NCBI RefSeq assembly: GCF_030019515.1
Contig: NZ_JASEEQ010000001.1
Location: 248,001-312,000, forward strand
Source of the DNA: Nocardioides sp.
GTDB taxonomy: Bacteria; Actinomycetota; Actinomycetes; Propionibacteriales; Nocardioidaceae
Length of the DNA: 64,000 nt
Direction of reading: 5' to 3'
Position 1 is the stretch's first letter; each line of letters opens with the position of its first letter. The notes beneath the pieces are model-generated. The model ran no database searches. It was not told where the DNA came from and saw only the letters and a list, made by a program, of their open reading frames with translations. Made by a program: the position numbers and the translations under genes. This document shows positions 17,774 to 58,552 of the stretch, piece by piece.

Positions 17774-19393
17774 TCAGCCGACCGCGCGGTCGCCCGTCCA
17801 GTACTGCGCCCGCAGCGCCTTCTTGTCCGGCTTGCCCAGCCCGGTCAGCGGGAGCGAGTCGGCGACGACCACCTGCTTGGGCGCCTGCACGGAGCCCTTC
17901 CGCTCCTTGACCATCTCCTTGATCTCCGCGGTCATCCGGCTGATCGCCTCCTCGTCGCGCGGCGCGTCGGAGCGCAGCACGACGATCGCCGTGACGGCCT
18001 CGCCGAACTTCTCGTGCGGGGTGCCGATGACCCCGACCTGGGCGACCGCGGGGTGGGCGGCGACGACGTCCTCGACCTCGCGCGGGAACACGTTGAAGCC
18101 GCCGGTGACGATCATGTCCTTGGTGCGGTCGACGATGTACCAGAAGCCGTCCTCGTCCTCACGAGCCACATCGCCGGTGTGCATCCAGCCGCCGCGGAAG
18201 GTCTCCCCGGTCTCGTCGGGCAGGTTCCAGTAGCCGCCGGCCACCAGGGGGCCCGCCACGCAGATCTCGCCGGGCTCGCCGACCGGGACCGGGCGGCCGT
18301 CCTCGTCGAGCAGCGCGGTCCGGATGAACGCCGAGGGCCGACCGCACGAGGCGAGCCGGCGCTGGTCGCCGCCCTCCTCCAGTGCCTCCGCGTGGTCTCC
18401 CTTGGGCAGGTATGTGATCGCCATCGGTGCCTCGGACTGGCCGTAGTACTGCGCGAAGATCGGGCCGAAGCGGCCGATGGCCTCCTGGAGCCGGACCGGG
18501 TTGATCGCCGATGCGCCGTAGTACACGGTCTCCAGCGAGGACAGGTCGCGGGTCCGGCTGTCCGGGTGGTCCATCAGCGCGTAGAGCATCGACGGCACCA
18601 GCATCGTCGCGGTGATCCGCTGCTCCTCGATCGTGCGCAGCACCTCGGCCGGGTCGAACTTCGCAAGCACGTAGAGACAGCCACCCTTGAGCACGGTCGG
18701 CACGAAGAACGCCGCGCCGGCGTGCGAGAGCGGCGTGCACATCAAGAACCGCGGCGCCTCCGGCCACTCCCACTCGGCCATCTGGATCTGAGTCATCGTG
18801 TGCATCTGCCGCGAGGTCCCGATCACGCCCTTGGGCTTGCCGGTGGTGCCGCCGGTGTAGGTGATCGAGACGATGTGGTCGGGCGCGAGGGTCACCGCCT
18901 CGAGCGGCGCCGGGTCGAACGACGCGGCCGCCGCGTTGAGGTCGTAGCCGACGTGGCCGAGCTCCTCGGGCACCGGGCCGATCGTGAGGACCTTCTCCAG
19001 CTTGGGGCAGCGCTCGAGCAGCCCGAGCGTGCGCTCGACGAACATCGGGACCGGGTCGATCGTGATCGTGGTGATCTCGGCGTCGTTGATGACGTAGGCG
19101 TGGTCGTCCAGGGACCCGAGCGGGTGGAGCGACGTACGCCGGTAGCCCTGGGTCTGCCCGGCCCCGAGGATGAACAGCACCTCTGGTCGGTTGAGCGCGA
19201 GCAGGGCGCCCGCGGTCCCCCGGCCGGCGCCGAGCGACTCGTAGGCCTGCACGTACTGGCTCATCCGCTCCGCGGCCTGGCCCCCGGTGATGGTGGTCTC
19301 GCCGAGGTGCATCACGGGCTTGGTCCGGTGCCGCTTGAGCGCGGAGACCATGAGGTGGCCGTTGTGGGTCCCGAGTCGCAGGTCGTCCGTCAT
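17774..19393 (-). CDS. Acyl-CoA synthetase (FadD8-like), KstR-controlled
   Basis: 539 aa with all AMP-ligase blocks: YTGGTTGKPKGVIG, YYGQSEAPMAITYLP, GWMHTGDVAREDEDGFWYIVDRTKDM, GGFNVFPREVED and the C-terminal lysine motif LTGLGKPDKKALR. The N-terminal LMVSALKRHRTKPVMHLGE recalls FadD8 rather than FadD17 or FadD19; that is from memory. ATG 19393 lies 10 bp from a KstR-like box, so it is probably a steroid or side-chain acid ligase. The same frame stays open far upstream, but that part is antisense or shadow sequence of neighbouring genes. Confidence 0.85.
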   Translation of the reverse strand: MTDDLRLGTHNGHLMVSALKRHRTKPVMHLGETTITGGQAAERMSQYVQAYESLGAGRGTAGALLALNRPEVLFILGAGQTQGYRRTSLHPLGSLDDHAYVINDAEITTITIDPVPMFVERTLGLLERCPKLEKVLTIGPVPEELGHVGYDLNAAAASFDPAPLEAVTLAPDHIVSITYTGGTTGKPKGVIGTSRQMHTMTQIQMAEWEWPEAPRFLMCTPLSHAGAAFFVPTVLKGGCLYVLAKFDPAEVLRTIEEQRITATMLVPSMLYALMDHPDSRTRDLSSLETVYYGASAINPVRLQEAIGRFGPIFAQYYGQSEAPMAITYLPKGDHAEALEEGGDQRRLASCGRPSAFIRTALLDEDGRPVPVGEPGEICVAGPLVAGGYWNLPDETGETFRGGWMHTGDVAREDEDGFWYIVDRTKDMIVTGGFNVFPREVEDVVAAHPAVAQVGVIGTPHEKFGEAVTAIVVLRSDAPRDEEAISRMTAEIKEMVKERKGSVQAPKQVVVADSLPLTGLGKPDKKALRAQYWTGDRAVG

Positions 19394-19403
19394 GAGGCGA
19401 GAG

Positions 19404-19417
19404 TAGAACGTGTTCCA
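19404..19417. promoter_or_regulatory. KstR-like box before fadD (17774-19393)
   Basis: TAGAACGTGTTCCA, one mismatch from symmetry. It lies 10 bp upstream of the minus-strand start at 19393 and 23 bp from the stop of the gene behind it, so it can only serve the fadD gene. Confidence 0.8.
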
Positions 19418-19440
19418 GTTCCGGGCAACGGCCGGACCGG

Positions 19441-21387: not shown

Positions 21388-21457
21388 CGATCGGTCTCCT
21401 CAGGGTCAGATTTCGTTGATCGAGCTTCACATGGCGGTCACTGAGCTTGTCGAAGTG

Positions 21458-21471
21458 TAGAACGTGTTCTA
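21458..21471. promoter_or_regulatory. KstR-like box, perfect palindrome halves
   Basis: TAGAACGTGTTCTA, the most regular copy in the window. It is 11 bp before the DUF35 gene start and serves that operon directly, and possibly the divergent LLM gene. A CACTGAGCTTGTCGAAGTG sequence just upstream (21439-21457) looks like a common actinobacterial interspersed repeat. Confidence 0.88.
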
Positions 21472-21481
21472 GTTTCAGACC

Positions 21482-22489
21482 ATGGCACGAACACTGTCAG
21501 CACCGGTCACCGTAGCGTTCGACTACACCCGCTCGACCGGACCGGTGCTCGGGCGCTTCCTCACCGGGCTGCGCGACGGCAAGGTCCTCGGCGGCCGCAC
21601 GTCCGAGGGCCGGGTCGTGGTGCCACCACCGGAGTTCGACCCGGTGACGCACGCGGCGATCGACGAGTTCGTCGAGGTCGCGCCGACCGGCACGGTCACG
21701 TCCTGGACGTGGGTCCCGGAGCCGGTCAAGGACCAGCCGTTCGACCGGCCCTTCGCGTTCGCGCTGGTGACGCTGGACGGCGCGGACGCCCCGCTGCTGC
21801 ACGCGCTCGACGTCACCGCCCCCGACCAGGTCTCCACCGGGATGCGGGTGCGGGTGCGCTGGGCGGACGAGCGGGTCGGCGCGATCACCGACATCGCGTG
21901 CTTCGAGCCCGTCGTCGGGCTCGATGGAGTCGAGTCCGACGACCCCGGGCCAGATCGAGCGCGACCGCAGCCGAGGAACGAGGCTGCGACGGAGCGGTCG
22001 AGACCCACCGACGTGAGCGGCGTCGTCACTCCCGTGTCTCTCGACTACCTCTACGCCGCCAGCCCCGAGGAGAGCGCCTTCTACCGCGGCCTCAACGAGG
22101 GCCGGATCCTCGGCCAGCGCTGCCCGAGCTGCCAGAAGGTCTACGTCCCGCCGCGCAGCGCGTGCCCGTCCGACGGCACACCGACCGCCGAGGAGGTCGA
22201 GGTCTCGCAGACCGGCACGATCACGACGTTCTGCATCGTCAACGTGCCGTTCCTGGGCCAGAAGATCACCCCGCCCTACGTGTCGGCGTACGTGCTCCTG
22301 GACGGCGCCGACATCGCGGTGCTCCACCTGATCCTGGGTGTCGAGGCCTCGGAGGTCCGGATGGGCATGCGGGTCGAGGCGGTCTGGAAGCCGGAGGAGG
22401 AGTGGCAGTACTCGCTGGAGAACATCGACCACTTCGAGCCGACCGGCGAGCCGGACGCCGACTACGAGTCCTACCGGCACCACCTCTGA
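21482..22489 (+). CDS. Double DUF35 OB-fold protein (Rv3521-type)
   Basis: 335 aa made of two DUF35 (ChsH2-like) modules. The N-terminal one (about residues 15-142) lacks zinc cysteines; the C-terminal one (about 180-335) has a rubredoxin-like zinc ribbon CPSCQKVYVPPRSACP followed by an OB fold. DUF35 proteins pair with thiolase-like lipid-transfer proteins; here ltp4 and ltp3 follow directly, the Rv3521-Rv3523 order, so it is probably the partner of a steroid aldolase. The linker between modules (residues about 144-178) is encoded by palindromic sequence (21911-21988) and is longer than I expect for the family. Confidence 0.88.
   Translation: MARTLSAPVTVAFDYTRSTGPVLGRFLTGLRDGKVLGGRTSEGRVVVPPPEFDPVTHAAIDEFVEVAPTGTVTSWTWVPEPVKDQPFDRPFAFALVTLDGADAPLLHALDVTAPDQVSTGMRVRVRWADERVGAITDIACFEPVVGLDGVESDDPGPDRARPQPRNEAATERSRPTDVSGVVTPVSLDYLYAASPEESAFYRGLNEGRILGQRCPSCQKVYVPPRSACPSDGTPTAEEVEVSQTGTITTFCIVNVPFLGQKITPPYVSAYVLLDGADIAVLHLILGVEASEVRMGMRVEAVWKPEEEWQYSLENIDHFEPTGEPDADYESYRHHL
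21911..21988. repeat. Palindromic elements inside the DUF35 gene linker
   Basis: First hairpin: 14-nt arms 21911-21924 and 21930-21943, 13 of 14 paired, with loop TGGAG. Second: CGCAGCC (21966-21972) and GGCTGCG (21982-21988) around GAGGAACGA. The sequence continues into GAGCGGTCGAGACC, a style seen in intergenic repeats of this window. The frame is kept throughout. Confidence 0.65.
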
Positions 22490-29341: not shown

Positions 29342-29390
29342 GTGACAGAGACTACATACCGGAAGTACGCAGGGGAAGGTTGTCCAGGAT

Positions 29391-29404
29391 AAGAACGTGT
29401 TCTA
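29391..29404. promoter_or_regulatory. KstR-like box on the fadA5 side
   Basis: AAGAACGTGTTCTA, 10 bp before the fadA5 ATG; identical to the box at 10695. Its centre is 63 bp from that of the cyp125-side box. Confidence 0.82.
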
Positions 29405-29405
29405 G

Positions 29406-30578
<1,173 letters not shown>

Positions 30579-45071: not shown

Positions 45072-46559
45072 ATGGCGGACACGATCCCGGGCGCGCTCCG
45101 CGCCGCGGTGGAGCGCTTCGGCGACCACGCGGCGTACGTCGAGGGCGGGGTCGCGACCAGCTTCGCGGGCCTGCTGGAGCGGGTGCGTCGTACGGCGGCG
45201 GGCTACCGCGCCCGCGGCCTCGCCCCCGGCGGCCGGGTCGTCGTGTGGGCGCCGAACAGCGTCGACTGGGTGGTCGCGGCGCTCGCCGTGTCGTACGCCG
45301 GCGGCACGCTGGTGCCCGCGAACTCCCGCTACACCGGCCACGAGGTCGCCGACCTCGCCGACCGGACCGGCGCGGTGCTGGTCGTGGTCGCCGACGGCTT
45401 CCTCGGCCGCACCCAGATCGCCGACCTGCGCGCGGCCAGCGCGCTGCCGAGCGTGCGCGAGGTCATCGACATCGCCCGGCTCGTCGCGGTCGAGGCCGAG
45501 CCCGGTGGGATCGACGACGTGGCCGCGGCGGTCTCCCCCGACGACGTCGCGGACATCCTGTTCACCTCGGGCACCACCGGCCGGCCCAAGGGCGCGATGT
45601 CGGCCCACCGGCAGACCGTCGGCGTGGCCGAGGCCTGGGGCTCGCTCGGCGGGGTGGGCGCCGACGACCGCTACCTGGTGGTCAACCCGTTCTTCCACTC
45701 CTTCGGCTACAAGGTCGGCATCGTCACCGGCCTCCTCACGGGGGCGACGCTCTACCCGCTCGCGACGTTCGACCTGGACGAGACGATGCGGCTGATCGAG
45801 TCCGAGCGGATCACGGTGCTGCCGGGCGCCCCGACCGTCTACCAGTCGCTGCTGGCCGCCCCGGGCCGCGCCGAGCGGGACCTGTCCTCGCTGCGGCTCG
45901 CGGTGACCGGCGCCGCCGTCGTACCCGTCGTGCTCATCGAGCGGATGCGCGAGGACCTCGGCATCGACCGCGTGGTCACCGCGTTCGGCATGACCGAGGC
46001 GGTCGTGGTCACCATGTGCCGCGACGGCGACCCCGCCGAGACCGTGGCGACCACGTGCGGGCGCGCGATCCCCGGGATGGAGACGAGGATCGGCGAGCGG
46101 GGCGAGCTGCTCGTGCGCGGCGCCTACGTGATGCTCGGCTACCTCGACGACCCCGCGGCGACCGCGGAGGCGATCGACGCGGACGGCTGGCTGCACACCG
46201 GCGACGTCGGCACCCTCGACGAGCACGGCAACCTCTCGATCACCGACCGCCTCAAGGACATGTACATCTCCGGCGGGTTCAACGTGTACCCCGCCGAGGT
46301 GGAGCAGGCGCTCGCGCGGATGGACGGAGTGGCCGACGTGGCGGTCGTCGGGGTCGCCGACGAGCGGCTGGGCGAGGTCGGCAAGGCGTACGTCGTCCTC
46401 TCCTCGGCCACGCCGGCCCCGCCGTCGAGGGACGACGTGATCTCGTTCGCCAAGGAGCGGCTCGCGAACTTCAAGGTCCCGCGCTACGTCGAGGTCATCG
46501 ACGCGCTGCCGCGCAACCTGTCCGGCAAGGTGCTGAAGAACGAGCTGAGGGGCTGTTGA
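45072..46559 (+). CDS. fadD3: HIP-CoA synthetase FadD3
   Basis: 495 aa acyl-CoA ligase: FTSGTTGRPKGAMSAHRQ, FGMTEAVVVTMC, GWLHTGDVGTLDEHGN, GGFNVYPAEVEQ and NLSGKVLKNELRG. FadD3 forms the CoA ester of HIP and so commits rings C/D; its product is the KstR2 ligand. ATG 45072 has a GGAGGTGA site. The stop overlaps the fadE31 ATG. Confidence 0.93.
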   Translation: MADTIPGALRAAVERFGDHAAYVEGGVATSFAGLLERVRRTAAGYRARGLAPGGRVVVWAPNSVDWVVAALAVSYAGGTLVPANSRYTGHEVADLADRTGAVLVVVADGFLGRTQIADLRAASALPSVREVIDIARLVAVEAEPGGIDDVAAAVSPDDVADILFTSGTTGRPKGAMSAHRQTVGVAEAWGSLGGVGADDRYLVVNPFFHSFGYKVGIVTGLLTGATLYPLATFDLDETMRLIESERITVLPGAPTVYQSLLAAPGRAERDLSSLRLAVTGAAVVPVVLIERMREDLGIDRVVTAFGMTEAVVVTMCRDGDPAETVATTCGRAIPGMETRIGERGELLVRGAYVMLGYLDDPAATAEAIDADGWLHTGDVGTLDEHGNLSITDRLKDMYISGGFNVYPAEVEQALARMDGVADVAVVGVADERLGEVGKAYVVLSSATPAPPSRDDVISFAKERLANFKVPRYVEVIDALPRNLSGKVLKNELRGC

Positions 46560-47731
46560 TGGATCTGACCCTGTCCGCGTCCGAGCTCGCGTTCCGCGAC
46601 GAGGCGCGCGCCTGGCTGGCCGCGAACGTGCCGGCCGAGCCGCTGCCCTCGATGGACACCGCCGAGGGCTTCCGCGCCCACCAGGAGTGGGAGCAGCGGC
46701 TCGCCGACGCGAGGTGGTCGGTCGTGAGCTGGCCCGCGGCGTACCACGGCCGCGAGGCGTCGCTGGTCGAGTGGGTGGTCTTCGAGGAGGAGTACTACCG
46801 CGCCGGCGCGCCCGGCCGGGTCTCCCAGAACGGCATCTTCCTGCTCTCCCCGATCCTCTTCGACCACGGCACCCAGGAGCAGCAGGACCGGTTCCTGCCG
46901 TCGATGGCGACCGGCGAGCAGATCTGGGCGCAGTGCTGGTCCGAGCCCGAGGCCGGCTCCGACCTCGCCGCGCTGCGCTCGACGGCCACGCGTGACGACG
47001 AGCGCGGCGGGTGGGTCCTCAACGGCCAGAAGACCTGGTCGTCGCGGGCGTCCTTCGCCCACTGGGGCTTCGGGCTGTTCCGCTCCGACCCGCAGGCGCA
47101 GCGGCACTCGGGGCTCACCTACTTCCTCTTCCCGCTCGACGCCGACGGCATCACGGTCCGCCCGATCGCGCAGCTCGACGGCGAGGCGGGCTTCGCCGAG
47201 GTGTTCCTCGAGGACGTCTTCGTGCCGGACGCCGACGTGCTCGGCGCGCCCGGCGACGGCTGGCGGGTCGCGATGTCGACGGCCGGCAACGAGCGCGGCC
47301 TGTCGCTGCGCTCCCCCGGCCGGTTCTGCGCCGCCGCCGACCGGCTGGTCGACCTGTACCGGGAGCGGACGGAGGCCTCGAGGCTCGCTCCGCTCGCAGC
47401 TCAAGCACCGTCCGCCGCCGACGGCGTCGTCGACGCCTGGATCAGGGCCCAGGCCTACCGGCTCTACACCTGGGGCACGGTGACCCGGGTCGCGCAGGGC
47501 GGCGACCTGGGCGCCGCCGGGTCGGCCAACAAGGTGTTCTGGTCCGAGCTGGACGTCGCGCTGCACGAGACCGCGCTCGACCTGCTCGGGCCGGAGGCCG
47601 AGGTGGAGTCGGCCTGGCTGGACGGCTACACGTTCTCGCTCTCGGGGCCGATCTACGCCGGGACCAACGAGATCCAGCGCAACATCGTCGCCGAGCGGAT
47701 CCTCGGCCTGCCGAGGGAGGTGCGGACGTGA
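46559..47731 (+). CDS. fadE31: Acyl-CoA dehydrogenase FadE31
   Basis: 390 aa ACAD: YHGREASLVEWVVFEEEYYRAGAPGRVSQNG in outline, CWSEPEAGSDLAAL, GQKTWSSRASFAHW and YAGTNEIQRNIVAERILGLP. KstR2-controlled in mycobacteria, with FadE32 and FadE33, acting late in ring C/D degradation. Residues about 272-284 (EASRLAPLAAQAP) are encoded by a palindromic repeat (47374-47409) shared with fadE32, an insertion I do not expect in the family. Confidence 0.88.
   Translation: MDLTLSASELAFRDEARAWLAANVPAEPLPSMDTAEGFRAHQEWEQRLADARWSVVSWPAAYHGREASLVEWVVFEEEYYRAGAPGRVSQNGIFLLSPILFDHGTQEQQDRFLPSMATGEQIWAQCWSEPEAGSDLAALRSTATRDDERGGWVLNGQKTWSSRASFAHWGFGLFRSDPQAQRHSGLTYFLFPLDADGITVRPIAQLDGEAGFAEVFLEDVFVPDADVLGAPGDGWRVAMSTAGNERGLSLRSPGRFCAAADRLVDLYRERTEASRLAPLAAQAPSAADGVVDAWIRAQAYRLYTWGTVTRVAQGGDLGAAGSANKVFWSELDVALHETALDLLGPEAEVESAWLDGYTFSLSGPIYAGTNEIQRNIVAERILGLPREVRT
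47374..47409. repeat. Palindromic element inside fadE31
   Basis: 36 bp beginning GGCCTCGAGGCTCGCTCC and ending CTCAAGCACCG. It matches 48177-48212 in fadE32 at 30 of 36 positions and lies in the same reading frame, encoding SRLAPLA. It resembles actinobacterial GGTCTCGA...TCGACC interspersed repeats. Confidence 0.75.
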
Positions 47732-48627
47732 GGTTCGAGCTCGACGACGACCAGAGGGACTTCGCCGGCGCCCTGGAGAGCCTGCTCGCCAACGCGGACA
47801 CCGTCGGTGCGGCCCGCGCCTGGGCGGACGGCGACCACGCCCCCGGCCTGAAGCTCTGGGCCCGGCTGGCCGAGCTGGGCGTCACCCAGCTGGCGGCCGA
47901 GGCGAGCGCGGTCGAGGTCGTCATCGCGTTCGAGGCGCTGGGCCGGCACGCCGTGCCCGGCCCGTGGGTCGAGTCGGCGGCGTACCTCCCGGTCGCCCTC
48001 GGCCACGAGGTGGCCGGCATCGCGACCGTGGCGCTGCCACCGGTCGTGCCCTACGCGCTCGACGCCGACGTCGCCGACCGGGTGTACGTCGGGTCCGACG
48101 ACTCGATCGACGAGGCCGAGGTCGGGGAGATGGTCGGCTCGGTCGACCGGACGCGCCGACTCTTCCACGTCACCGGGGTCTCGAGGCTCGCGCCGCTCGC
48201 ACCTCGACCGCCGGTGCCCGCGTTCGACCTCGCCGTGCTCGCGACCGCCGCCGAGCTGCTCGGGGCGGGCGAGCGGATCCTGCACGACACGGTGGCCTAC
48301 GCCGGGCAGCGCACGCAGTTCGGCCGCCCGATCGGCTCCTACCAGGCGATCAAGCACGCCCTCGCCGACGTCCGGATCGCCCTCGACTTCGCGCGACCGC
48401 TGGTCCTGGGCGCGGCGCTCGGCGAGGTGCCGGCCTCCGCCGCCAAGGTCGCGTGCGCGGACGCGGCGTACCTCTCCTCGCGCACCGGGCTGCAGGTGCA
48501 CGGCGCGGTCGGCTACACCCAGGAGCTCGACCTGAGCCTCTGGCTGACCAAGGTCCGGGCGCTCGTGACCGCGTGGGGCACCCCCGCCTTCCACCGCGCC
48601 CGGGTGCTCGAGGGGCTGGTGGGCTGA
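47728..48627 (+). CDS. fadE32: Acyl-CoA dehydrogenase FadE32
   Basis: 299 aa, a short ACAD subunit typical of the alpha-2-beta-2 steroid dehydrogenases. RTQFGRPIGSYQAIKHALADVRIALD, the LQVHGAVGYTQELDLSLWLTKVRAL block are clear; the N-terminal and middle domains are reduced. It probably pairs with FadE31 or FadE33. Residues about 150-162 (GVSRLAPLAPRPP) come from a repeat element. GTG start overlapping the fadE31 stop. Confidence 0.86.
   Translation: MRFELDDDQRDFAGALESLLANADTVGAARAWADGDHAPGLKLWARLAELGVTQLAAEASAVEVVIAFEALGRHAVPGPWVESAAYLPVALGHEVAGIATVALPPVVPYALDADVADRVYVGSDDSIDEAEVGEMVGSVDRTRRLFHVTGVSRLAPLAPRPPVPAFDLAVLATAAELLGAGERILHDTVAYAGQRTQFGRPIGSYQAIKHALADVRIALDFARPLVLGAALGEVPASAAKVACADAAYLSSRTGLQVHGAVGYTQELDLSLWLTKVRALVTAWGTPAFHRARVLEGLVG
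48177..48212. repeat. Palindromic element inside fadE32
   Basis: 36 bp beginning GGTCTCGAGGCTCGCGCC and ending CTCGACCGCCG, with TCGAGG (48181-48186) and CCTCGA (48202-48207) as inverted ends. It encodes SRLAPLA in the same frame as the fadE31 copy. Confidence 0.75.
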
Positions 48628-49598
48628 TGGAGTTCGCACTGTCCGAGGAGCAGCAGGAGCTGGCCGCCACCGTGCGCGGGCTGCTCGCCAGGCGGGCCGA
48701 CCCCCGCGTCGCATCCTTCGACGAGGCCCTGTGGCAGACCCTCTGCGAGCAGATCGGCGTGGCGGCGCTCGGCATCCCGGAGGAGTACGGCGGTGCCGGA
48801 TTCACGCTGTTCGAGTCCCTGGTCGCCCTCGAGGAGATCGGCCGCTCGCTGGCACCCTCGCCCCTGCTGGCCTCGCTGGTCACCTCGGAGGCGCTGCTCG
48901 CCGGCGCCGGCGAGGACGCCAGGCAGCGGCTGCTGCCGCGCCTCGCGGCCGGGGAGGTCGGGGCCCTCGCCGACGGCGCGGACGCCTCCGACGTGCTCGA
49001 CGGCGACCACGCGACGGTGCTCGTGGTGGCCACCGACGACGGCCTGTTCGAGGTCGCCCCCGAGACCGCCGACCGGGCCTGGACGCCGTCCATGGACCAG
49101 ACGATCCGGCTCGCGACCGTCCGCTCCGACCTCACCGCGGCGACCCGGATCGGTGAGGGTCGGGCCGCCCGCGACCGGGCCGGCCTGGTCGGCGCGGTCG
49201 CCACCGCCGCACTCGCCGTCGGCGGCGCGGCCCGCGCCCTGGAGATGACCGTGGCCTACTCCAAGGAGCGGGTCCAGTTCGGCCGGCCGATCGGCTCGTT
49301 CCAGGCGCTCAAGCACCGGATGGCCGACCTGCACGTGCGACTCGAGATGGCCCGGTCGGCGTCCTGGGCCGCGTCGTACGCCGTCGCGCTCGGCACCGAC
49401 GACGCCGGCCAGCTCGCGCACGTCGCCAAGGCCTACTGCAGCGAGGCGTTCGCCCACATCGCGGGCGAGACCGTCCAGCTGCACGGCGGGATCGCGATCA
49501 CCTGGGAGCACGACGCCCACCTGGTGTTCAAGCGCGCCCACGCGCTGGGTCAGCTGTTCGGCGCCCCGCACACACACCGCGCGGCCGTGGCCCTCTGA
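48627..49598 (+). CDS. fadE33: Acyl-CoA dehydrogenase FadE33
   Basis: 323 aa ACAD subunit: GIPEEYGGAGFTLFESLVALEEIGRSLAP in outline, VAYSKERVQFGRPIGSFQALKHRMAD and QLHGGIAITWEHDAHLVFKRAHAL. Last gene of the fadD3 transcript, in the Rv3561-Rv3564 order. Probably part of a heteromeric dehydrogenase with FadE31/32. The ATG overlaps the fadE32 stop (TGATG). Confidence 0.88.
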   Translation: MEFALSEEQQELAATVRGLLARRADPRVASFDEALWQTLCEQIGVAALGIPEEYGGAGFTLFESLVALEEIGRSLAPSPLLASLVTSEALLAGAGEDARQRLLPRLAAGEVGALADGADASDVLDGDHATVLVVATDDGLFEVAPETADRAWTPSMDQTIRLATVRSDLTAATRIGEGRAARDRAGLVGAVATAALAVGGAARALEMTVAYSKERVQFGRPIGSFQALKHRMADLHVRLEMARSASWAASYAVALGTDDAGQLAHVAKAYCSEAFAHIAGETVQLHGGIAITWEHDAHLVFKRAHALGQLFGAPHTHRAAVAL

Positions 49599-56015: not shown

Positions 56016-56834
56016 TCACTCCTCGAAGGTGACGCTGAGCGGCTCGAAGCCGCTGATGGTCGCGACGACCCGGTCACCCGGGACGAACGGCACGAACGGG
56101 CCCAGGGCCCCGGACAGGATCAGGTGGCCTGCGCGCAGCGGGTCGCCGAAGCGCGCCGCCTGCACGGCCAGCCAGCGCAGCGCCTCGAGCGGGTCGCCGA
56201 GGCAGGCGGCGCCGTTGCCGGCCGAGCGCTCCTCGCCGTTGATGGTCAGCGACATGACCACGTCGCGCGGCTCGATGTCGTCGAGGGAGCGGCCGTCGGC
56301 GCCCACGACGAACAGCCCGCTGGAGGCGTTGTCCGCGACGGTGTCGGTGAAGCCGATCCGCCAGTCGGCGATCCGCGAGTCGACGATCTCGAGCGCGGGC
56401 AGCGCGACCTCGACGGCGGCACGCACCGCGTCGAGCGTGATCTCGTCCTCGGGCAGGTCCAGGTCGCGAGCCAGCACGAACGCGACCTCCGCCTCGACCC
56501 GGGGCTGGAGCAGGGTGCGCATCGAGATGGGTCCCCGGCGCCCCTCGCGGGGCGAGACGTCCATGTCGTCGAGCAGGTAGCCGAAGTCCGGCTGGTCGAC
56601 GCCGAGCTGGGTCTGCACCGCCTCCGACGTCGCGCCGATCTTCCGGCCGACCACGGTGGCGCCGTGGGCGAGCCGACCCTGCACCAGGCCCTGCTGCACG
56701 GCGTACGCCGCGGCGAGGTCCTCGGTGCCGATCAGGTCACGGACCGGCGCGCACGGGACACGGGTCGCCTGGGCCTGAGAGAGTCGCTCGACGGCGGCAT
56801 CGATCGAGGTCGCGCTCGAGTCCTGGGAGGTCAC
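56016..56834 (-). CDS. hsaE: 2-hydroxyhexa-2,4-dienoate hydratase HsaE
   Basis: 272 aa of the MhpD/4-oxalocrotonate decarboxylase family: [31 protein letters not shown] in outline, [14 protein letters not shown] (metal-binding glutamates) and [24 protein letters not shown]. It hydrates the dienoate released by HsaD. GTG 56834 lies 12 bp from the KstR box and has no clear ribosome-binding site, so the transcript may be leaderless. Confidence 0.93.
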
Positions 56835-56845
56835 GTGACCGATAG

Positions 56846-56859
56846 TAGAACCTGTTACA
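56846..56859. promoter_or_regulatory. KstR-like box between hsaE and kstD
   Basis: TAGAACCTGTTACA, the most degenerate of the eight boxes. It fills the 35-bp gap of the divergent hsaE and kstD starts and must serve both. Confidence 0.78.
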
Positions 56860-56869
56860 GTTTCACGCC

Positions 56870-58552
56870 ATGACGGCCCCCCTGCCTCCCCGGGACCTGG
56901 AGGAGAGTGTCGACGTCGTCGTCGTGGGCGCCGGCGGTGCCGGCATGACGGCTGCGCTCGCAGCCGCAGCGCACGGCCTCGACACGGTGCTGATCGAGAA
57001 GAGCTCCTACTTCGGCGGGTCGACCGCGCGCAGCGGCGGCGGGGTCTGGATCCCCGGCAACTACGCGCTGAAGGCGGCCGGGCAGGACGACCAGCTGGAG
57101 AGCGCCAAGCTCTACCTCGACTCGATCGTCGGGGACGTGGTGCCCAAGGTGCGCCGCGACACCTACCTCGAGCGCGGCCCCGAGGTCATGGACTTCATCA
57201 GGGAGCGGACGCCGCTGCGGTTCACCTGGGTGCCGCAGTACGCCGACTACCACCCCGAGGCGCCTGGCGGCCGGGCCGCGGGGCGCTCGGCGGAGCCGAT
57301 CCCGATGGACGCCCGGTTCCTCGGCGAGGAGCTGAGCCGGCTGCACCCGCAGTACACCAAGGCACCGGCGAACATGATCGTGACCCAGGCCGACTTCCGG
57401 AAGATCAGCCTCGGCCTGCGCACCCTCCGCGGTCCGCTGACGATGGTCAAGGTGCTGCTGCGCCGGGTCGTCAGCCTGGTGCGCGGCCAGCGGATGTACG
57501 CGATGGGCAACGCGATCGCCATCGGGCTGCGCAAGGGCCTGATGGACGCGGGCGTGCCCGTCCACTACGACACCGAGCTGCGCGACCTGGTCCTCGAGGA
57601 GGGTCGCGTGGTCGGCGTACGCGTGCTCCGCGACGGCGTCGAGACCGTGATCCGCGCCGAGCGCGGGGTGATCCTCGGCAGCGGCGGGTTCGAGAAGAAC
57701 CTCGAGCTGCGCGAGAAGTACCAGCCGCAGCCCACCTCGGTGGACTGGACGACCGGCTCGCAGTTCAACACCGGCGGCGGCGTGCTCGCCGGCATCGCGG
57801 CGGGCGCGCAGGTCGACCTGATGGACGACGCGTGGTGGGGCCCGACGATCCCGCTGCCGTCCGGGCCGTGGTTCTGCCTGGCCGAGCGCAACCTGCCGGG
57901 CTCGATCATCGTCAACCAGGCCGGCCGGCGGTTCATGAACGAGGCGCTGCCGTACGTCGAGGCCGTGCACGAGATCTACGCCGGCGAGGCGACGGGCGTC
58001 GGGCACGTGCCGGCGTGGATGGTCGTCGACCAGCGCTACCGCAACCGGTACCTGTTCGCCGGGCTCTCGCCGCGCCAGCCGTTCCCGGGCCGCTGGTACA
58101 AACACGGCACCGTGCGGAAGGCCCCGACCCTGGAGGCCCTCGCCGCGGAGATCGACGTACCGGCCGACGCGCTGGTGGAGACCGTGACCCGCTTCAACGG
58201 CTTCGCCGCGGCCGGCGTCGACGAGGACTTCCACCGCGGTGAGAGTGCCTACGACAAGTACTACTCCGACCCGCGGGTCAGGCCGAACCCGTCCCTGCAC
58301 GTCATCGACCAGGGGCCGTTCTACGCCGTGAAGATCGTCCCGGGCGACCTCGGGACCAAGGGCGGGCTGGTCACCGACGAGCGCGCCCGGGTGCTGCGCC
58401 CCGACGGCTCGGCGATCCCCGGCCTGTACGCCGCCGGCAACGTCTCGTCCGCGGTGATGGGACGCACCTACGCCGGGCCGGGCGCGACGATCGGACCCGC
58501 GCTGGCCTTCGGCTACCTGGCCGCCGAGGACATCGCGAAGGAGAACCCCTGA
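56870..58552 (+). CDS. kstD: 3-oxosteroid 1-dehydrogenase KstD
   Basis: 560 aa flavoprotein. FAD motif VVVVGAGGAGMTAALAAA at the N-terminus, SSYFGGSTARSGGGVWIP, the catalytic tyrosine region FTWVPQYADYHPE, FYAVKIVPGDLGTKGG (tyrosine and glycine of the active site) and GPGATIGPALAFGYLAAE at the end. It inserts the C1-C2 double bond in ring A, leading to B-ring opening. Its stop overlaps the MaoC gene ATG. Order hsaF-hsaG-hsaE/kstD-hsd4B equals Rv3534c-Rv3538. Confidence 0.95.
   Translation: MTAPLPPRDLEESVDVVVVGAGGAGMTAALAAAAHGLDTVLIEKSSYFGGSTARSGGGVWIPGNYALKAAGQDDQLESAKLYLDSIVGDVVPKVRRDTYLERGPEVMDFIRERTPLRFTWVPQYADYHPEAPGGRAAGRSAEPIPMDARFLGEELSRLHPQYTKAPANMIVTQADFRKISLGLRTLRGPLTMVKVLLRRVVSLVRGQRMYAMGNAIAIGLRKGLMDAGVPVHYDTELRDLVLEEGRVVGVRVLRDGVETVIRAERGVILGSGGFEKNLELREKYQPQPTSVDWTTGSQFNTGGGVLAGIAAGAQVDLMDDAWWGPTIPLPSGPWFCLAERNLPGSIIVNQAGRRFMNEALPYVEAVHEIYAGEATGVGHVPAWMVVDQRYRNRYLFAGLSPRQPFPGRWYKHGTVRKAPTLEALAAEIDVPADALVETVTRFNGFAAAGVDEDFHRGESAYDKYYSDPRVRPNPSLHVIDQGPFYAVKIVPGDLGTKGGLVTDERARVLRPDGSAIPGLYAAGNVSSAVMGRTYAGPGATIGPALAFGYLAAEDIAKENP

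Follow-up and report, generated by a model that had tools for sequence, protein, structure and literature searches.

A REP-like palindromic repeat family of Nocardioides lies in frame within two neighbouring acyl-CoA dehydrogenase genes, and different repeat families recur at the FadE31 linker

In-frame palindromic repeats are already known as a kind of event, from tagged REPs (PMC3733652) and from the Rickettsia palindromic elements (RPEs). As passages of PMC3767692 describe them, RPEs are 100-150 bp long, occur in Rickettsia and Wolbachia, form several families and are found in frame in genes unrelated to each other, where they code for solvent-exposed regions; different groups lie near each other in some orthologues, and hot spots are considered there. 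In-frame fusions of RPEs are among the subjects reviewed in PMC10969869. Passages of PMC3733652 describe GTAG/CGTC-tagged REPs, palindromes of 20-40 bp that are mostly intergenic, with some wholly within ORFs, in several species, and a recB gene in which X. campestris and X. oryzae carry different REPs at nearly the same position; the phyla named in those passages do not include Actinobacteria.

The element described here, family 1, is likened to RPEs by description, not by sequence: it resides in frame in unrelated conserved genes (10 of 21 copies in its own genome), but it is only about 41 bp long, its host is a high-GC actinobacterium of the genus Nocardioides, and its recurrence could be quantified across 98 orthologues and mapped onto a tree. 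With the tagged REPs it shares the short palindromic form and a mostly intergenic position with some copies within ORFs. However, it has no tag at either end, since no conserved columns that would correspond to an unpaired GTAG/CGTC tetranucleotide were seen when 22 copies from its own genome and 42 others were inspected, and its own genome has no Y1 transposase.

The window, as we call the whole 64-kb stretch of DNA that was analysed, carries two adjacent fadE genes in which the original prediction had noticed a pair of 36-mers, at 47374-47409 and 48177-48212, alike at 30 of 36 bases, in the same codon phase and both encoding SRLAPLA. This was reproduced exactly: direct comparison gave 30 identical bases and six differences, both 36-mers begin at codon position 3 of their own gene (gene starts 46559 and 47728), and SRLAPLA is the peptide of both. 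The features concerned are the following.

46559 to 47731, plus strand: host gene 1, an acyl-CoA dehydrogenase (FadE31 of the original prediction) with N-terminal, middle and C-terminal domains (Pfam PF02771, PF02770 and PF00441).
47369 to 47413, plus strand: family-1 element inside FadE31, residues about 271-285 (EASRLAPLAAQAP), hairpin decayed, 57.2 bits with the covariance model.
47728 to 48627, plus strand: host gene 2, acyl-CoA dehydrogenase-like (FadE32 of the original prediction), with Pfam PF00441 at residues 171-296.
48172 to 48216, plus strand: family-1 element inside FadE32, residues about 149-163 (GVSRLAPLAPRPP), 61.9 bits with the covariance model.

The pair is not a product of chance, because 100 shuffles of the window give an expectation of 0 matches for a 33-base pattern taken from the second copy. 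Within the 64 kb there is no third copy that differs from a 21-base core at fewer than 3 positions, and besides the two copies no covariance-model match in the window exceeds 17 bits. The element is longer than 36 bp, with conservation reaching about six bases further 5' and up to CCACCG at the 3' end, and an Rfam scan of 46000-49500 gave no match at it. In FadE32, for which Pfam shows no N-terminal domain match, the element sits immediately ahead of the C-terminal helical domain; in the predicted model (mean pLDDT 85.7, pTM 0.88) its peptide is modelled as the loop joining strand 143-150 to helix 163-192, where model confidence is lowest (residues 151-160 being the lowest-confidence block). 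For FadE31, a weak model (mean pLDDT 60.7, pTM 0.51) only suggests that the element peptide connects two helices.

Other repeats were seen in the window. Four copies of a TAGAACnTGTTCTAGTTT-like site lie at 19390-19431, 21444-21485, 29377-29418 and 56832-56873, and we presume them to resemble the operator of the KstR steroid regulon. Positions 2107-2186 hold a short tandem array with a 10-bp unit in six registers, and a sub-threshold Rfam CRISPR-repeat match at 48957-48996 (22.2 bits against a cut-off of 39) is probably due to chance.

Family 1 is an interrupted palindrome that forms an imperfect hairpin, a REP-like element found genus-wide in Nocardioides; it is dispersed, its stem covaries and it lies mainly outside genes. 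Column conservation puts the length of the element at about 41 bp (CGGTGGTYTCGAGGCTCGCTSCGCTCGCACCTCRACCACCG); its 3' border is sharp, its 5' border fuzzier. The stem consists of 15 pairs and a 2-base bulge, with 85.3% of cells paired; seven of the 15 pairs are changed on both sides, and the covariation score lies above those of all 500 shuffles and of slid versions. The word palindromic in the original prediction thus holds for the family and fails for the FadE31 copy itself, whose hairpin is decayed and whose folding is no stronger than that of shuffles (z +1.11); the FadE32 copy folds slightly better than shuffles (z -1.08). A derivation of the outer stem from an inverted duplication of the target was rejected, pairing beyond the element being near the expected level.

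A lack of further copies in the genome had been named as a result that would speak against a repeat family; this objection fails because the source genome (35 contigs, 4.6 Mb in all) has 14 sites that match a 23-base core with at most one mismatch and 22 that do so with at most 3. A covariance model built from 20 copies scores 20 own copies at more than 50 bits and one at 42.4, followed by a series of weaker matches. With this model 27 of 58 genomes were positive, the source genome included, and all belong to the same genus; matches range from 0 to 98 per genome, the high counts being "at least" values since no more than 108 candidates per genome were scored. No family-1 match was present in 21 genomes from other families of the order, and viral contigs gave 0 exact matches to the element. 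Among the matches listed for the exact core, 73 of 80 named records are Nocardioides and the other seven stand under higher names (Propionibacteriales, Nocardioidaceae, Actinomycetota bacterium). Two tandem arrays of the element were noticed in G020 (genomes are denoted by G, loci by L), with period 60 and seven copies in L087 (contig C34) and period 66 and six copies in L088 (contig C3).

To locate the copies relative to genes, 21 own copies, namely the 20 best and a weaker, 33-bit copy in LarC, were scored over the 50 codons to either side with a codon model that had been trained on the window. Ten of the 21 have coding signal on both flanks and one open frame running through the element. 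The hosts are an Lhr-type helicase, an MFS transporter, an AlkB-rubredoxin fusion, a hydantoinase-like protein, an amidohydrolase, FadE32, TreY, FadE31, a biotin carboxylase and LarC, all with domains recognised by Pfam or NCBIfam. In these otherwise normal proteins the copies occupy linkers and loops. Six of the ten internal copies fall between or just outside domain matches.

Lhr-type helicase, residues about 363-378: between DEAD (to 264) and Helicase_C (from 402).
AlkB-rubredoxin fusion, residues about 424-439: between domain matches, 372 and 446.
LarC, residues about 467-482: between NCBIfam LarC1 (to 466) and LarC2 (from 485); a single Pfam match spans it.
Biotin carboxylase, residues about 498-512: between domain matches, 496 and 514.
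Amidohydrolase, residues about 34-49: ahead of the domain match from 52.
FadE32, residues about 149-163: ahead of the domain match from 171.

In TreY the element stretch is a 12-residue insertion relative to the solved homologue 6lcv, and in Lhr the element lies within a stretch of unlike sequence when homologues are compared. Some other own copies stand at gene starts, for example ahead of MazG and DapC.

Elsewhere the family keeps mainly to other places. We examined 130 distinct exact-core copies from 104 of the 108 loci listed, a further seven being too near contig ends. Among these listed matches six lie within coding sequence and in its frame; no coding signal flanks 80 of them, it flanks 35 on a single side, and in nine it is found on both sides with other frames or strands or a stop, so that the 124 copies that are not in frame inside a gene need not all be intergenic; this agrees with the likeness to intergenic repeats of related genomes that had been proposed. 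As a short palindrome with many dispersed, mostly intergenic copies, family 1 is a REP in the broad sense. Internal copies are more frequent in the source genome (10 of 21 against 6 of 130 among the matches listed; Fisher p 1.4e-6), a comparison that sets diverged copies against exact-core ones, two sets differing in age by construction.

The expected preference for one reading frame took the form of a restriction: all 16 in-frame internal copies are confined to three of the six frames, which read as peptides of the GLEARSARTSTT, SRLAPLAPRPP and VVEVRAQRAS types. The unused frames are two that begin with Arg-Trp and one with a stop in the A form. The chance figure for this restriction is 3e-4, calculated post hoc.

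Taking these observations together, we consider it probable that the copies arise by REP-like dispersal of a palindrome and that in-frame copies survive in tolerant linkers. Copies would enter DNA largely irrespective of genes; any that disrupt a protein would be purged, and those in frame in tolerant linkers would persist, their GLEARSARTSTT, SRLAPLAPRPP and VVEVRAQRAS peptides acting as neutral, flexible spacers. Intragenic copies may also outlast intergenic ones because the reading frame holds them, which would explain why half of the copies are intragenic in a genome where few remain, such as this one. Longer retention is unsupported by divergence, since nine intragenic copies did not differ from 11 other own copies in pairing or conservation (p 0.66 and 0.53).

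The history of the two copies could be followed across the genus, where all 196 genomes match the FadE31-FadE32 pair, the weaker matches being partial and possibly paralogous. The nearest relative, G032 (88% DNA identity), has the same family-1 copy in FadE31 (55.1 bits); its FadE32 is free of the element and has a linker seven residues shorter, which agrees with the original prediction that SRLAPLA is an insertion there. The FadE32 copy is therefore younger than the split or was lost in G032, and the FadE31 copy is older. From the strong matches among the 196 genomes, which are not a random draw, 110 loci were taken, and the linker was parsed in 98 for FadE31 (12 left out) and in 90 for FadE32 (20 left out). 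Among the latter, family 1 was also seen by eye in G034, in G113 and, reversed, in G072.

The 98 FadE31 linkers are mostly 45, 51 or 57 nt long, and most are short and element-free. Three distinct palindromic families occur in this linker, differing by species: family 1 in G000, G032, G034, G141, G025 and G027, family 2 (GGTTGAGGAGGTTGCGCAGCAACCGTCTCGAAACC) in G140, G166, G173 and G186, and family 3 (GCTGACCCGCCCGAAACTTTCGGGCGGGTCAGC), whose 16+1+16 palindrome is perfect, in G165, with a degenerate form in G009. Families 1-3 are found in 12 of 20 linkers longer than 57 nt against two of 78 shorter ones. By local alignment to these families, 14 of the 98 linkers score at least 32, a level that none of 1272 control windows (78 nt each, taken from this region) attains; the 14 include L339 and L396, which match family 2 in part only and were left out of the tree count. 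Folding energy failed as a marker and alone would miss these linkers: long linkers have a median z of -0.9 against -0.1 for short ones, and z falls below -2 in 3 of 20 against 7 of 78.

On a tree of the FadE31 protein minus its linker, the 12 clear carriers need 11 changes, five for family 1, four for family 2 and two for family 3; nine rows with other, partial or doubtful repeats were set aside, and the number is approximate, 36 forks being open among 95 inner branches. The original prediction had taken presence of the motif at the same positions in distant orthologues as a sign against it. Family 1 does lie at the FadE31 place in G034, G141, G025 and G027, in agreement with that sign to the letter only: these four are scattered on the tree among non-carriers, and some hold the element in another frame or on the opposite strand. 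Together with the other palindromes at this site, this argues for repeated entry and not for an old conserved part of the protein. The G034 copy is surrounded by near-identical relatives without it, and its frame reads GLEAR against SRLA in G000.

Further repeats were observed in these linkers, our claims being limited to families 1-3; family 7 was left out of them, and so were families 5, 6 and 8, whose strings were drawn from the very linkers that were then scored. The FadE31 linker of L332 (G168), of 44 residues, has two tandem copies of another repeat (GGTGGTCGAGCAGCGACGAGCG...). In L318, L338 and L359 a repeat of about 44 bp (GTCTCGATACGTCCTCGCC...CTACTCGACGA) lies in FadE31 of one species and FadE32 of two, in the same frame and with small changes.

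Families 2-4 are dispersed repeats in most of the scanned genomes that carry them at these sites. Within nine genomes, the matches to family 2 number 31 in G166, 19 in G165 and 11 in G140, and no more than two in any of the remaining six. Family 3 occurs at 48 places in G165 and at 55-60 in G009; G000, G032 and G166 have a few, and four genomes lack it. Family 4, which came to light at the hydantoinase site, is matched 58 times in G059 and nine times in G032. Reversed-pattern controls for families 2-4 gave 0, 0 and one match in one genome; the genome-wide counts leave out G173 and G186 for family 2 and G141 for family 1.

The AlkB-rubredoxin linker resembles that of FadE31 in holding family 1 in G000 and family 2 in G032, G059, G008 and G140, five of 21 parsed linkers (nine of 30 were not parsed). 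The element is on opposite strands in G000 and G059, and this difference, like the frame of the G034 FadE31 copy, speaks for separate entries. In G032 the one genomic match to the family-2 pattern lies elsewhere. The AlkB copy is the sole family-2 match in G059, which fits genes keeping the last copies of a family and not a simple link with current copy number. By eye, a family-2-like element was recognised in the MFS loop of G059 and family 4 at the hydantoinase site of G032 and G059. The sites of the source genome's own elements are empty or otherwise filled in G032, G059 and G123. It seems that such flexible links have repeatedly been remade from repeat DNA with the enzyme left intact.

Such findings could also be read as Nocardioides linkers serving as DNA-level docking sites that palindromic repeats repeatedly re-enter or replace, which we consider unlikely; if it were true, the linker of a core enzyme would be continually rewritten by whichever family is spreading, giving a standing route from selfish DNA to protein sequence. 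We regard it as quite improbable that the linkers are hot spots of insertion or exchange at the DNA level, with a palindrome already in place being exchanged for another via termini common to both (GGTGGTTGAG...CGAAACCACC), through recombination or template switching. The outer arms common to families 1 and 2, the different families at single sites in the FadE31, AlkB, MFS and hydantoinase genes and the clean control windows elsewhere in the FadE31 region would all suit such an exchange, yet families 3 and 4 lack the shared termini and nevertheless sit at the FadE31 and hydantoinase sites, orientation and frame vary between species at one site (FadE31, AlkB) as separate entries would give, and most parsed FadE31 linkers carry no element.

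That the hairpins function in mRNA or DNA, through translational pausing at domain borders or by binding a regulatory or nucleoid protein, and are retained on that account, appears highly improbable. Covariation of the stem across copies and the position of six of ten internal copies at domain borders would be expected of such a function, but the FadE31 hairpin is decayed, intragenic copies pair no better than those outside, which argues against hairpin function inside genes, and most parsed FadE31 orthologues manage without any element there. Gene conversion between the neighbouring paralogues, suggested by their adjacency and by the identical phase and peptide, is barely conceivable as the source of both copies, being contradicted by the presence elsewhere in the genome of 18 more copies scoring over 50 bits, by the non-homologous genes among the hosts, by the FadE31 copy standing alone in G032 and by family-1 copies in FadE32 of G034 and, by eye, of G113 and G072.

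Dispersal of a REP-like palindrome, with survival in tolerant linkers, remains the reading that we prefer, and the interpretation of the original prediction is supported. Its analogy with RPEs stands as regards dispersal and in-frame copies; it is qualified by the family's place in other genomes, mainly outside genes, and by the net gains, which are mostly smaller than the element. Relative to tree neighbours the linkers have gained about +6 to +39 nt, which is not one element length, so that simple insertion with target duplication is unsupported. No clean empty site with target duplication was found among tree neighbours or in G032, G059 and G123, where linkers have diverged; the target site duplication by which a MITE is recognised could not be read, the linkers being too diverged to offer an exact empty site.

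Two candidate movers were rejected. A Y1 (RAYT-type) transposase, the partner of RAYT-mobilised REPs, is absent from the source genome (0 matches to PF01797; the same search was positive in 5 of 14 control genomes). DUF222-HNH proteins, which we take to be of the 13E12 type, were suggested by five loci of G019 (L082-L086), in which the reading frame of a DUF222-like gene runs through the element and on towards what, judged by eye, is a likely HNH part, with one to four inverted tandem copies of the element (48-bp period) just upstream; the L086 gene is frameshifted, and Pfam recognised DUF222 in one of two scanned G019 genes. However, DUF222 gene number does not track element number (Spearman -0.10, p 0.57, 37 genomes), and one of 20 other DUF222 loci has a match above 20 bits.

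The literature searched, mostly outside subscription journals, held no report of such elements in Nocardioides or other Actinobacteria, and a search with six core strings returned one match, unrelated by its title. As far as these searches reach, what is new are untagged actinobacterial families that lack a Y1 partner, and a counted, recurrent capture at one linker.

The FadE31 linker, of about 15 residues, amounts to a natural replicate experiment, with about 11 separate entries by three families and close relatives without them, and it makes testable whether the repeats choose the site or selection does. The length and composition of a linker in a conserved enzyme can thus be set by repeat DNA, and annotators and enzyme engineers are warned that such stretches are repeat-derived.
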